Shown one piece after another: positions 2,357 through 41,364 of a DNA stretch of 64,000 bases. The DNA is from Bacteroidaceae bacterium (GTDB lineage Bacteria; Bacteroidota; Bacteroidia; Bacteroidales; Bacteroidaceae): positions 1 through 64,000 of the forward strand of contig JAFUWG010000029.1 in assembly GCA_017483605.1 (NCBI GenBank), read 5' to 3'. The notes under the pieces are model-generated. The model did no database searches, was not told the DNA's origin, and was given only the letters and a program-made list of their open reading frames with translations. The position numbers and the translations under genes are program-made. Position 1 is the first letter of the stretch. Every line of letters starts with the position of its first letter.

Positions 2357-2496
2357 CAATAATGTCTTATCAAAAATATGGGTGCTGTACACCTCTCAAG
2401 TGGTCTGAGTCACACCGCTTCGGTGGTATGAGTCACAGCACCGAGGCGGTGTGACTCATACCACTTAAGAGGATACGAGTGTGTAATTTTGTCCTA
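2357..2496 (-). repeat. Dispersed 3'-end palindromic element, copy A
   Basis: One of three copies (others at 32925-33063 and 40176-40314). A 69-bp core at 2398-2466 has 28-bp arms matching at 26 of 28 positions around a 13-bp centre, and contains three modules spaced 23 bp apart, centred on TGAGTCA or TGACTCA. The border TAGGACAAAATTACAC starts at 2496 on the minus strand, 29 bp after the ribD stop. The far border (2357-2390) is the most diverged of the three copies. Strand is given as the direction of the upstream gene, ribD. Confidence 0.85.
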
Positions 2497-17073: not shown

Positions 17074-17178
17074 AATTTAATTAATAATTAACGATAAATA
17101 ATTAAGAAAATAGATGGGGAAAGAATGGGAAAACATGCACCGACAAAGAAACACCACCCGTCGTTAGGTTGTCATTGT

Positions 17179-17227
17179 CGTTTTAGCATTTTTTACTGTG
17201 GTTGCAAGCAGCCCAAATCTGTCCACA
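17179..17227 (-). promoter_or_regulatory. SAM-II-type riboswitch in the metK leader
   Basis: On the minus strand: TGTGG (P1 5' strand, 17227-17223), then ACAGATTTGGGCTGCTTGCAA, CCACA (P1 3' strand, 17201-17197) and the tail GTAAAAAATGCTAAAACG. This follows the SAM-II (SAM_alpha) pattern: short P1, a loop with GATTT and CTTGCA, and an A-rich tail with GCTAAAA that forms the pseudoknot. It starts about 10 nt after the predicted transcript start and precedes metK. The pseudoknot pairs were not modelled, and P1 is only 5 bp. Confidence 0.72.
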
Positions 17228-17243
17228 TATTGAATTTCGGGTG

Positions 17244-31287: not shown

Positions 31288-31986
31288 ATGAACGTCATGC
31301 CCCAACACCGCATACTCATAGTCGATGACGAGCAGGACCTTTGCGAGATTCTGCGATTCAACCTGATGGCAGCAGGCTATGAGGTTGAGGAGGCGTATTC
31401 GGCAGAAGAGGCTTTGCAGAAAGGTGTGGAGAGGTTCGACCTGTTGCTGCTGGATGTGATGATGCCGGGTATGTCGGGGTTTGAGTTGGCGGTACAGTTG
31501 AAGGCATCAGATGCCACAGCCAAGGTGCCCATCATCTTTTTGACGGCCAAGGACACGGAGGACGACACCTTGACAGGCTTCGGCGTGGGTGCCGACGATT
31601 ATGTGTCAAAACCCTTTTCCGTCAAGGAGGTGCTGGCAAGGGTGAAAGCCGTGCTCAGCAGAACTGCTCCAACCGTGGAGAGGCAACCGACAACCGCCAG
31701 CCATCAGGGGCTCGTGATGAATCTTGAACACAAGACCGTGACGGTGGACGGAGAAGCCGTTTCCTTCACCAAGACCGAATTTGACCTCCTCTGGTTGCTG
31801 CTCACCCATCAGGGCAAGGTGTTCTCAAGGCAGGAACTATTGGAAAGCGTGTGGCCATGCGATGTGATTGTGACAGACAGGACGGTGGATGTGAATGTGA
31901 CCCGCATACGGAAGAAAATCGGGCCTTACGCTCCCTGCATCGTTGCCCACGTTGGCTATGGGTATCGTTTTCGAGTGAACAATTAA
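31288..31986 (+). CDS. OmpR/PhoB-family response regulator
   Basis: A 232-residue DNA-binding response regulator. Receiver domain: acidic pocket VDDEQD near residue 11, phospho-acceptor Asp in LLLLDVMMPGMSG (about residue 56), the Thr in FLTAK and the Lys in SKPFS. The C-terminal winged helix (residues about 135-230) has TKTEFDLLWLL and the recognition region SVWPCDVIVTDRTVDVNVTR. The histidine kinase starts 18 bp later. Position next to the Na/Pi cotransporter suggests a PhoB-like role; this is inference from context. Confidence 0.94.
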   Translation: MNVMPQHRILIVDDEQDLCEILRFNLMAAGYEVEEAYSAEEALQKGVERFDLLLLDVMMPGMSGFELAVQLKASDATAKVPIIFLTAKDTEDDTLTGFGVGADDYVSKPFSVKEVLARVKAVLSRTAPTVERQPTTASHQGLVMNLEHKTVTVDGEAVSFTKTEFDLLWLLLTHQGKVFSRQELLESVWPCDVIVTDRTVDVNVTRIRKKIGPYAPCIVAHVGYGYRFRVNN

Positions 31987-32003
31987 AAACTGACAATCAT
32001 AAG

Positions 32004-32927
32004 ATGACAATCGGGAAAAAAATGTTCGTCACGGTGATGGCGATTTTTCTGGTGTATGCCGTGGTCTTTCTCGTGTTTGAAGACTACGACCGCCACGTGC
32101 TCGACCCGCTCAACGAGGCGAGCGACTGGTACTTGCTGCTTTTCTCCCTGCTCGTCATGCTGATTGTCGGGTATGTGTTGCATCGCTATTCTCGCCGATT
32201 GGACGACACCATCAGCCGGCAGCAGTCGGAAGAGCAGAACAAGATGCGTCGGCAGTTGACACAGAACATCTCTCACGAACTGAAAACCCCCGTCGCCAGC
32301 ATTCTCGGCTACACAGACACCATCCTTGACACCCCCAACTTGCCACCAGACACCCAACGGCAGTTCATCGAGCGAACCAACGCACAGGCACGACGTTTGA
32401 CCGCCCTTCTGCAAGACCTCTCCACGCTGAACAGGATGGATTATGCCCCCGAAATGTTGTCGAAGGAGAGAGTGGATGTGTCCGCCTTGGTGGCTGACAT
32501 CGTACAAGAGACCTCCCTGGCATTTCAGCGAAAAAGCATGACCCTGAAGAACGAATTGCCTGAAGGCATCCATGTGCAAGGCAACTGGTCGTTGCTCTAC
32601 AGCGTCTTCCGCAACCTCTTCGACAACGCCCTTCACCATGCAGGCGAAGGCACCACGGTGGAACTCTCGGCCGAGCAACAGAAAGACACATGGGAATTTA
32701 CCTTTAGCGACAACGGTCAGGGGGTTGCCCCCGAGCACCTGCCACGCCTTTTCGAACGCTTCTACCGCATTGACAAAGGTCGTAGTCGCTCGATGGGTGG
32801 CACAGGGCTGGGACTTTCCATCGTTAAGAATGCCGTCCTCTGGCATGGCGGCACCATCCGTGTCCAGCAAAACCCGGGTGGTGGTTTGCGGTTTGCCTTT
32901 ACCCTCCCCTTTCATTCCGTCGAATAG
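32004..32927 (+). CDS. PhoR-like sensor histidine kinase
   Basis: A 307-residue kinase with two membrane helices (FVTVMAIFLVYAVVFLVF and WYLLLFSLLVMLIVGYVL) and only a short (~25-residue) periplasmic loop, no HAMP or PAS domain, then HisKA with the phospho-His in NISHELKTPVASILG (about residue 91) and HATPase motifs NLFDNALHHA, FSDNGQGV and GGTGLGLSIVKNAV. With such a small sensor loop it probably senses through a partner, possibly the PhoU-like tail of the neighbouring transporter. The TAG stop at 32925 is the first codon of element copy B. Confidence 0.93.
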   Translation: MTIGKKMFVTVMAIFLVYAVVFLVFEDYDRHVLDPLNEASDWYLLLFSLLVMLIVGYVLHRYSRRLDDTISRQQSEEQNKMRRQLTQNISHELKTPVASILGYTDTILDTPNLPPDTQRQFIERTNAQARRLTALLQDLSTLNRMDYAPEMLSKERVDVSALVADIVQETSLAFQRKSMTLKNELPEGIHVQGNWSLLYSVFRNLFDNALHHAGEGTTVELSAEQQKDTWEFTFSDNGQGVAPEHLPRLFERFYRIDKGRSRSMGGTGLGLSIVKNAVLWHGGTIRVQQNPGGGLRFAFTLPFHSVE

Positions 32928-33063
32928 GACAAAATGACACACTCGATGCCTCTAAAGTGGTGTGAGTCACACCGCCTGGGCGGTCTGAGTCACACCACCT
33001 CGGCGGTCTGAGTCAGACCACTTTCGACGTGTACAGCACGCCGTTTTAGCCACGACAAAATTG
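32925..33063 (+). repeat. Dispersed 3'-end palindromic element, copy B
   Basis: A 139-bp element starting TAGGACAAAATGACAC, whose TAG is the stop codon of the histidine kinase. The 69-bp core at 32955-33023 has three 23-bp modules centred on TGAGTCA, each nearly palindromic (for example GGTCTGAGTCAGACC). It ends with GACAAAATTG. Copy C is the same length and differs at a few positions. Confidence 0.9.
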
Positions 33064-40175: not shown

Positions 40176-40314
40176 CAATTTTGTCGCCCCTAAAACGGCG
40201 TGCCGTACACGTCGAAAGTGGTCTGAGTCAGACCGCTGAAGTGGTGTGACTCAGACCACCCGGGCGGTGTGACTCACACCACTTGAGAGGCATCGGGCGT
40301 GTCATTTTGTCCTA
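40176..40314 (-). repeat. Dispersed 3'-end palindromic element, copy C
   Basis: A 139-bp element oriented like the upstream gene (minus). It starts TAGGACAAAATGACAC, with TAG being the stop of the EEP-family gene, and ends GACAAAATTG. Core at 40216-40284 with modules GGTCTGAGTCAGACC, GGTGTGACTCAGACC and GGTGTGACTCACACC at a 23-bp period. Same length as copy B; one turn of each module has exchanged pairs (C..G for G..C), keeping the palindromes. Confidence 0.9.
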
Positions 40315-41364
40315 TTGCGGGGTGGAAGGAAGGAGGTTAAAGCGTGTCATGATGGGGAGATGGTCGCTGACGCCTCCTTTGTAGATGGGACCGAGGTAGG
40401 TGCGGCGGGGTTTGATGTCGCCATGGGTGGGGTCGGGCTCGATGAGGAAGGGGAGGGAGAGGATGCGAGAGAGGGTGGGGGAAAGGGTGGTGGTGTGGGT
40501 GAGAATATGGTCGAGGGTGGACCACTCGCCTTGATATTTGTAGGTGCCTGGCTTGAGGCGGGCGGTTTGGTCTTTCAAGGGGAGATGACGGGTGAGGGCT
40601 TTGAGTTGAGGGGAGCGGGAGTCGGCGTTGAAATCGCCCATGAGGATGAGGTTGGGATGCTGTCTGCAAGCGAGGACGGAATCGAGGTTTTCTTGCAGCA
40701 GGGCAACCACTTTCATGCTGCGTCGCTGGGCTTCTGCTCCGCCTCGTTTGGAGGGGAGATGGAGGACATAGACATCCAGCGTGTCGCCACTTGCGATGGT
40801 GCCGGCAACGTGCAGGATGTCGCGGGTGGGGTGTTCAGGAATGTGCGGCTTTATGTGCTGAGTATCAACGGGATGAAAGGTGAACGGGGAATAGAGTAGG
40901 GCGACATCGATGCCACGTTCGTCGTCGGAATGGGTCATGATGTAATGATAGCCCAAATTGACGAGTGGGGTGCGACGGGTCAGGTATTCCATCACGGTGT
41001 CGTTTTCCACTTCGCAAAGGCCGACCAGGTCGATAGGTCTGTCCTCGTCTGCTGCAGCAATGACTTTGGCGACGTTTTTGAGTTTTTTGAACAGTCGTCC
41101 TTTCGTCCAGTGGTGGTCGCCTTCAGCACAAAACTCAAGGTCGTTTTTGCCTTCGTCGTGGATGGTGTCGAAGGCGTTTTCGATGTTGTAGGAAAGGACG
41201 GTGAAGGGGTGTTGGGCATTGGCGTCGGCTGCTCTTATCAAGCATGAAAAGAAGATGATGAAACACAAAGATGGGAAAGAAATAAAAGATGCCATTCGGG
41301 ATGTTGGCCAACGATGCACTGGCCTATCTTTTATCTCTTTCCCACCTTTATTTAAAATAGTCAT
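40312..41364 (-). CDS. Secreted endonuclease/exonuclease/phosphatase family protein
   Basis: A 350-residue EEP-superfamily protein. A hydrophobic signal segment (MASFISFPSLCFIIFFSC) begins at residue 24, so ATG 41295 is an alternative start; cleavage is near ADANA. Catalytic motifs: LSYNIEN (Asn), GLCEVEND (metal-binding Glu), VLHLPSKRGG, LMGDFNADS (Asp, Asn) and GGVSDHLPIM (Asp-His). Secreted Bacteroidetes members may act on nucleic acids or phosphorylated sugars; the substrate is unknown. It follows polA by 12 bp on the same strand. Element copy C begins at its stop codon. Confidence 0.88.
   Translation of the reverse strand: MTILNKGGKEIKDRPVHRWPTSRMASFISFPSLCFIIFFSCLIRAADANAQHPFTVLSYNIENAFDTIHDEGKNDLEFCAEGDHHWTKGRLFKKLKNVAKVIAAADEDRPIDLVGLCEVENDTVMEYLTRRTPLVNLGYHYIMTHSDDERGIDVALLYSPFTFHPVDTQHIKPHIPEHPTRDILHVAGTIASGDTLDVYVLHLPSKRGGAEAQRRSMKVVALLQENLDSVLACRQHPNLILMGDFNADSRSPQLKALTRHLPLKDQTARLKPGTYKYQGEWSTLDHILTHTTTLSPTLSRILSLPFLIEPDPTHGDIKPRRTYLGPIYKGGVSDHLPIMTRFNLLPSTPQ

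Follow-up and report, generated by a model that had tools for sequence, protein, structure and literature searches.

In REP/BIME systems, dispersed intergenic palindromes are tied to one resident gene, RAYT (TnpA-REP), which has the same palindromes next to it. MatP-matS, SlmA, and Noc use dispersed palindromic chromosomal sites that stand singly, each read by a dedicated protein of unrelated fold. HU proteins are usually regarded as not sequence specific. The HU-HIG family was reportedly defined by Burroughs et al. in 2017, and we know of no described target site for its proteins; in the literature searched, the founding 2017 paper aside, no description was found of an HU-HIG cognate site or of the repeat reported here. 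REPs are described as carrying a GTAG/CGTC end tag (PMC3733652). The BrickBuilt MITE of Porphyromonas gingivalis is described as 1 to 22.8 imperfect direct repeats with IS5-like 12-nt ends in 19 copies (PMC4596501), and the HU protein PG0121 of P. gingivalis is described as binding a 77-bp inverted repeat (PMC3969353).

The element described here lies in a 64,000-nt stretch of a Bacteroidaceae genome (the window). As in REP/BIME-RAYT systems, its arrays are dispersed and intergenic, with a matching array at one resident gene, but the partner is an HU-family protein and the arrays mostly have three modules. It resembles BrickBuilt, as described in PMC4596501, in its occurrence in Bacteroidales, 23-nt periodic unit, intergenic placement, inverted-repeat ends, and predicted long stem-loops. 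Unlike BrickBuilt, it mostly consists of three near-invariant palindromes, forms at least 81 arrays in the source genome, and is linked to an HU-HIG gene. An HU superfamily protein is probably involved, as in known HU/IHF systems, but here there is a defined word, three per array, genome-wide, with paralogue-specific versions. Like the sites of MatP, SlmA, and Noc, the arrays are palindromic and scattered over the chromosome; they differ in being triple, in having a similar scaffold, and in carrying words that vary with the paralogue. The partner protein is a member of the HU-HIG family (PF18291), and what is added here is a candidate cognate DNA site.

Copies of the element in the window

Three copies of 139 to 140 bp had been noted in a sequence-only reading of this DNA, and all are present: copy A (140 bp, 2357 to 2496, minus strand; modules 2402 to 2416, 2425 to 2439, and 2448 to 2462), copy B (139 bp, 32925 to 33063, plus strand; modules 32959 to 32973, 32982 to 32996, and 33005 to 33019), and copy C (139 bp, 40176 to 40314, minus strand; modules 40220 to 40234, 40243 to 40257, and 40266 to 40280). 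When 20 bp of flank is included in the alignment, their mean column identity is 84%. The core does consist of three 23-bp units, as that reading described, with the second and third modules of copy A differing from the exact 15-bp word. It also forms the proposed inverted repeat, the two 40-nt arms of copy A being 88% complementary. The proposed borders and length hold in part: the ends are long imperfect terminal inverted repeats, but the recognizable part is only about 90 bp in several relatives (by eye). In copy B, the left terminal repeat (TAGGACAAAATGACACACTCG...CCTCTAAAGT) occupies positions 32925 to 32958 (plus strand), and the right one, more diverged by eye, occupies 33020 to 33063 (plus strand).

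A histidine-kinase-like open frame upstream of copy B (31851 to 32927) ends with the TAG at the element's left end as its stop codon, and the open frame upstream of copy C (40312 to 41364, minus strand) likewise uses the TAG of that copy (40312 to 40314, minus strand). This coincidence was seen in three copies of the source genome (window positions 32925 and 40312, and L260), that is, in 3 of 23 left ends facing a gene's 3' end. On the flanks of copy A, the 3' end of its ribD-like neighbor recurs in inverted form (2314 to 2334 and 2529 to 2549; 21 nt, 90%), which is perhaps a template-switch scar at the palindrome.

An Rfam search gave no match for the element at the gathering score, in keeping with the earlier statement that no matching described family was known, and the below-threshold matches at copy B were only microRNA or sRNA models. 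Elsewhere in the window, a SAM-II riboswitch at 17173 to 17232 (minus strand) scored 57.3 bits, above its gathering score.

Structure of the word and the arrays

The source genome (56 contigs, 3.06 Mb, 81.5% complete) carries the 15-bp word GGTSTGASTCASACC at 283 places with at most one mismatch, compared with 0 for a reversed-pattern control. With 275 exact words, the genome-wide copy number, a low value of which would have spoken against the sequence-only reading, is high. By itself, the heptamer TGASTCA occurs in the window about as often as chance predicts (13 times versus 12.83 expected), and therefore the signal is the 15-bp word together with its 23-bp spacing.

A total of 156 distinct arrays, 75 from the source genome and 81 from other genomes, were collected for anatomy, the latter leaving out L143, L151, L153, and L156, which are single 15-mers from unrelated organisms. 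Three modules are present in 70 of the 75 and 69 of the 81 arrays, spaced by 23 bp in 143 of 147 steps in the source genome and by 23 or 24 bp in the others. The 12 fixed positions of the word show four deviations across 222 modules of the source genome, with two mismatches per module permitted. At positions 4, 8, and 12, all but 3 of 666 cases show G or C, in near-equal numbers; such a preference, which nearly excludes A and T, would be compatible with a protein that reads the minor groove, as HU/IHF proteins do. The words are surrounded by inverted terminal repeats that are imperfect and about 35 bp long (by eye), a feature also of MITEs, and the arrays of many relatives have in common at least an inner part like CCTCAAAA...TTTTGAGG (by eye).

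One array at a contig end of the source genome (L257, G000 C56) has four modules within a long near-perfect inverted duplication, for which a fold-back event and an assembly artefact are alternatives. Several arrays of the longer subfamily (L029, L035, and L037) are followed on their right flanks by another repeat family, which is AT rich (AATTCATGAAAAATTCATGG..., GGCTACGCCGAGCTAAAGG...), and something similar adjoins copy A at about 2240 to 2280 of the window (both by eye).

Distribution and genomic context

Among 201 genomes of the family, GGTSTGASTCASACC, hereinafter the TGA word, occurs in nine. All nine are among the 13 sampled genomes of the genus to which the window belongs, and none of the 188 from other genera has it. 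Within this uncultured genus, 18 of 45 genomes contain it in 2 to 275 copies each, the lowest being G224 with only 2 versus one reversed-control match. Among the matches listed, the named relatives are uncultured Prevotellaceae, Bacteroidaceae, or Bacteroidales, mostly rumen metagenome genomes by isolate name, and those in unrelated organisms are single 15-mers. A pattern search of viral contigs found no two modules at 23 or 24 bp, and blastn of copy B found no match in plasmid and phage records.

The arrays are intergenic, with gene overlap in 0 of 79 arrays of the source genome and 4 of 96 others (genes called by an in-house hexamer-based finder). They lie closer to 3' than to 5' gene ends, the median distances being 125 versus 283 bp in the source genome and 88.5 versus 248 bp elsewhere. 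This proximity, the very stable folding of copies A to C (z of -4.0 to -9.8), and the A4/T4 tracts often found beside the stem (by eye) would all suit a structured RNA, or a terminator working in both directions, within 3' untranslated regions. Such a role is nevertheless highly improbable, given that strand bias is absent, that the letters are near-invariant instead of changing in pairs, and that arrays also occupy divergent intergenic regions (8 of 67 non-edge places in the source genome and 20 of 72 in others). Relative to tandem transcription, array orientation is the same in 19, opposite in 14, and undefined in 1 case in the source genome and 13, 16, and 3, respectively, in other species.

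A stranded form of the folded RNA suggested by the sequence-only reading is not supported, given this lack of orientation bias and the lack of consistent pairing at variable positions, where no covariation was found. Paired changes that keep the palindromes, which it had described, are not a general rule, since positions 4 and 12 of the middle module are complementary in only 3% of 70 source-genome arrays and 14% of 69 arrays from other species. For the position pairs that a stem would join, within or between modules, complementarity reaches at most 74% of arrays. Compared with permuted partners, arm complementarity within the same element is uneven, with positions above and below the permuted mean (the other-species set being of mixed species). 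Because the arrays are intergenic, nearer to 3' ends, and found on either strand, an architectural or local regulatory role at the DNA level is likelier than an RNA role.

An HU-HIG gene with an array in its leader

The genes that flank arrays were clustered. One family, encoding a 133-amino-acid HU-like protein, recurs in five genomes, and here the array follows the promoter and precedes the start codon; another cluster is the ychF gene, with six members. Pfam HU-HIG (PF18291) scores above its cutoff of 26.2 bits in all eight proteins scanned (39.9 and 39.4 bits, 50.7 bits for the source-genome protein, and 53.6 to 73.9 bits for five paralogues), the remaining paralogues being assigned by BLAST similarity only. 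The partner protein also matches NCBIfam TIGR01201, below its cutoff. Close orthologues (at least 72% identity and at least 208.8 bits, the next best match being 100.5 bits) are present in 21 of the 45 genomes as 23 gene copies.

Two to four modules lie within 520 bp of the ATG in 21 of the 23 gene copies, the exceptions being G202 with one module and G231 with none. The array is 29 to 30 bp from the ATG in 15 of the 22 gene copies with a module. In 20 of these 22, the array starts 11 to 12 or 33 to 35 bp after a TAnnTTTG motif, which we take to be the Bacteroidota -7 box; in G201 and G202 the box is 88 and 124 bp away. At the HU-HIG gene of the source genome (G000 C42:44317), the array begins 12 bp after the box and lies 214 bp before the ATG. 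As a background set, 148 array-gene pairs in which the 5' end of the gene faces the array were compared: TAnnTTTG precedes the array by no more than 75 bp in 4 of the 5 HU-HIG pairs and in 0 of the 143 other pairs. An AlphaFold model of the protein had a mean pLDDT of 40, too poor for use.

Co-occurrence of gene and arrays and the variant word

The close HU-HIG orthologue is present in all 18 genomes with the TGA word and in 3 of the 27 others (G081, G014, and G214). These three and G224 carry a variant word, GGTSAGASTCTSACC (AGA type), in the HU-HIG leader. Before searching, AGA words were forecast in high numbers genome-wide in G081, G014, G214, and G224, perhaps also in G231 and G213, with few or none in TGA-type genomes. 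The exact words found were 53 in G224, 12 in G214, 11 in G081, and 9 in G014, as forecast; there were 13 in G063, 9 in G209, 5 in G213, 3 in G231, 2 each in the source genome and G113, 1 in G208 (a lone 15-mer, L385), and 0 in the rest. The AGA words of G063, G209, the source genome, and G113 went beyond the forecast. The HU-HIG gene copy of G063 has an AGA array in its leader, as does the second copy of G213, and of the two copies in G113 one has a TGA array and the other an AGA array.

With both word types counted, at least two words are present in 21 of 21 gene carriers versus 0 of 24 other genomes (Fisher test, 2.6e-13, which ignores kinship), and all 45 genomes show agreement between gene and arrays. 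In a tree of 30 genomes built from the single gene Lgt, from which G224 and G215 were left out for their odd sequences, the trait needs 5 to 6 changes; three independent pairs on well-supported branches are all concordant, too few for significance.

The change of the word from TGA..TCA to AGA..TCT is matched in the protein. Column 85 is N in 14 of 14 TGA-type and S in 7 of 7 AGA-type proteins, a count that sets aside the G213 copy with a mixed array (N) and the G231 protein without a leader array (S), and column 17 differs between the types likewise. Both columns also follow the protein tree, as the TGA/AGA split itself largely does. There are exceptions: G209 and the source genome, in which only N85 copies were found, carry 9 and 2 AGA words, and G231 (S85) has 7 TGA and 3 AGA words.

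Conservation and spread of the arrays

G169 and G183 represent two species that are about 10% diverged. Their contigs G169 C3 (187 kb) and G183 C21 run collinearly, with an identity of about 90 to 95%, and all eight arrays of this stretch are common to both. Over the recognized G169 arrays (30 of 32 fetched places, L326 and L329 not being recognized as arrays of at least two modules), 26 arrays align with a G183 array at the same locus, one of which lacks the first module in G183. Matches to two more (G169C1:87946 and L327) reach the corresponding G183 array region, and the remaining two fall outside the comparison. All 28 comparable arrays are thus occupied in G183 (26 aligned and 2 reached from flanks), and neither gain nor loss was seen in comparable regions. 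In the 26 aligned arrays, the changed sites are 3 of 924 at fixed positions, 29 of 460 in spacers, 122 of 1,036 in the arms within 20 bp, and 579 of 5,666 in flanks; within the word, 9 of 77 are changed at the central position, 3 of 77 at position 4, and 1 of 77 at position 12. The word, with as many as three mismatches allowed in each module, was used to find the G169 arrays but not their G183 counterparts, so that the changes in G183 are free of this bias. The arrays are not decaying junk.

The central-base changes comprise a G/C swap in 8 of 77 modules and one G/T change; among the 579 flank substitutions, 39 are G/C. The central G/C flip can be read as inversion of the palindrome center by template switching. 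Template switching that inverts the centers of inverted repeats is described in yeast (PMC8604942).

Upstream of ychF, words occur within about 350 bp in 6 of 20 relatives (G169, G183, G207, G098, G127, and G210), and in four of the six the site looks identical with diverged spacers and arms (by eye); a variant array occupies this place in G213 (by eye). Between the source genome and G169 or G183, a flanking gene is shared by only 3 of 81 source-genome arrays. This turnover in distant species and the ends of the element suggest a slow, transposition-like spread.

A palindromic repeat of the MITE or REP-like kind, non-autonomous, mobilized by a transposase, and merely present as an old insertion in the HU-HIG leader, would account for the terminal inverted repeats, the 2 to 275 words per genome, the intergenic placement, the positions that mostly differ in distant species, and the 3 of 23 element ends whose TAG serves as a stop codon. 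The left-end sequence has 47 matches in the source genome. That genome has one Y1_Tnp gene (E of 7.7e-19), and some other array genomes give weak matches. We consider this explanation unlikely as a whole, as it leaves unexplained why the word is conserved far above its flanks and why its spacing is conserved before one gene family. In a transposase search that covered the Y1_Tnp family alone, moreover, no Y1_Tnp (PF01797) was found at an E value of 0.001 in G183, G169, G155, G113, G098, and G042, which carry 22 to 109 words each. REP/RAYT as a required driver was rejected on the same result, no Y1_Tnp match being found in these six array-bearing genomes.

The sequence-only interpretation is supported in part: a high-copy intergenic family exists, but neither a stranded folded RNA nor a currently jumping element is supported. 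The non-autonomous repeat it proposed fits the terminal inverted repeats and the spread, but the array positions and words conserved between the two species speak against current jumping.

Proposed function of the arrays

The dispersed elements are probably binding arrays for the small HU-HIG (HU/IHF superfamily) protein, which would regulate itself through the array in its leader; this assignment is drawn from comparative sequence analysis. HU-HIG dimers would bind the 15-bp palindromes GGTSTGASTCASACC, and three palindromes at 23 to 24 bp would gather three dimers into a single compact nucleoprotein complex. The leader array, lying downstream of the protein's own promoter, would let the protein turn down its own synthesis. 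The autoregulation idea has a precedent in Escherichia coli, in which HU is described as negatively regulating hupA and hupB, with the hupA promoter overlapping a large inverted repeat (PMC3969353). The dispersed arrays would be the same sites copied around the chromosome by some dispersal step and afterwards kept by selection as protein-bound sites, and a chromosome-organizing or local regulatory role is more likely for them than pure parasitism. If this is right, HU-HIG proteins gain defined, directly testable target sequences, protein and DNA word would have changed together in one family, the words would be a natural set for learning how the HU-type arm reads DNA, and a class of dispersed palindromic repeats of Bacteroidota would be explained without a transposase.

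Distant HU-HIG genes and other words

Arrays were also sought upstream of 22 more distant HU-HIG genes, comprising 20 better-scoring matches (5 from the source genome and 15 from eleven relatives) and the second HU-HIG gene of G169 and G183. A triple palindrome scoring at least 53 lies upstream of 15 of the 22 versus 7 of 527 control genes (Fisher test, 3.4e-19), in a comparison in which the G169 and G183 genes are partly orthologous, neither group is independent, and control upstreams carrying the window's word are left out. All 15 arrays have 23-bp spacing and words unlike that of the window, such as GTACCCCTCGGGTAC (G000_C51 and G209_C32), GACCACGACGTGGTC (G000_C52), GACGTGGGGCACGTC (G209_C13), and GGACTGGAGCAGTCC (G213_C4); the upstreams include mutual orthologues and represent about nine different words (by eye). 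The other 7 of the 22 fall under the array threshold, with one (G214_C81) showing two modules. Six of the seven controls over the threshold are two arrays of the second HU-HIG word, two orthologous TGCGCA-type places, and two that share one AACACACC-type repeat block.

The second word, GAYRTCGWCGAYRTC, stands upstream of the second HU-HIG gene in G169 and G183 and forms further arrays, three triple ones in G169 and four triple ones plus one pair in G183, in about 0.5 Mb each; there are also a few single matches, and single-base-shuffle controls gave 1 and 0. For the words of two source-genome paralogues, about 287 kb sampled around the window's word showed no array apart from the one at the gene itself. 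Dispersal is thus shown for two HU-HIG lineages only, namely, the window's, with both of its word types, and that of the second HU-HIG gene. In many arrays of distant paralogues the outer arms resemble one another (by eye), so that an exchangeable word apparently sits on a shared scaffold.

The dozens of arrays near other genes could instead reflect an operator for some other regulator, with HU-HIG as just one target. This is decidedly improbable in view of the leader position, seen only at HU-HIG genes among the 148 pairs, and of the words, which change along with the HU-HIG paralogues, other paralogues carrying other words at their own genes. For the preferred HU-HIG reading, the paralogue words allow a broader version, towards which we lean slightly: the HU-HIG paralogues of Bacteroidota may constitute a DNA-word code, in which each would have its own 15-bp palindrome, repeated three times at about 23 bp on a common scaffold (CCTCAAAA...TTTTGAGG-like arms), and would control itself, some arrays having spread over the chromosome. 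Lineage-specific HU-HIG expansion would then reflect the diversification of nucleoid proteins that read specific sequences and have dispersed sites of their own. Such a system of two parts would be distinct from classical regulons and from transposons alike.

Palindromes of a further type, TGCGCASSSTGCGCA, recur every 23 bp upstream of a small lipoprotein-like gene with orthologous copies in G169 (C3 near 62 kb) and G183 (C21 near 64 kb) and are possibly another array word. Tandem AACACACC...GTATGTT units with a 23-bp period lie between two genes at about 212 to 216 kb of G183 C21.
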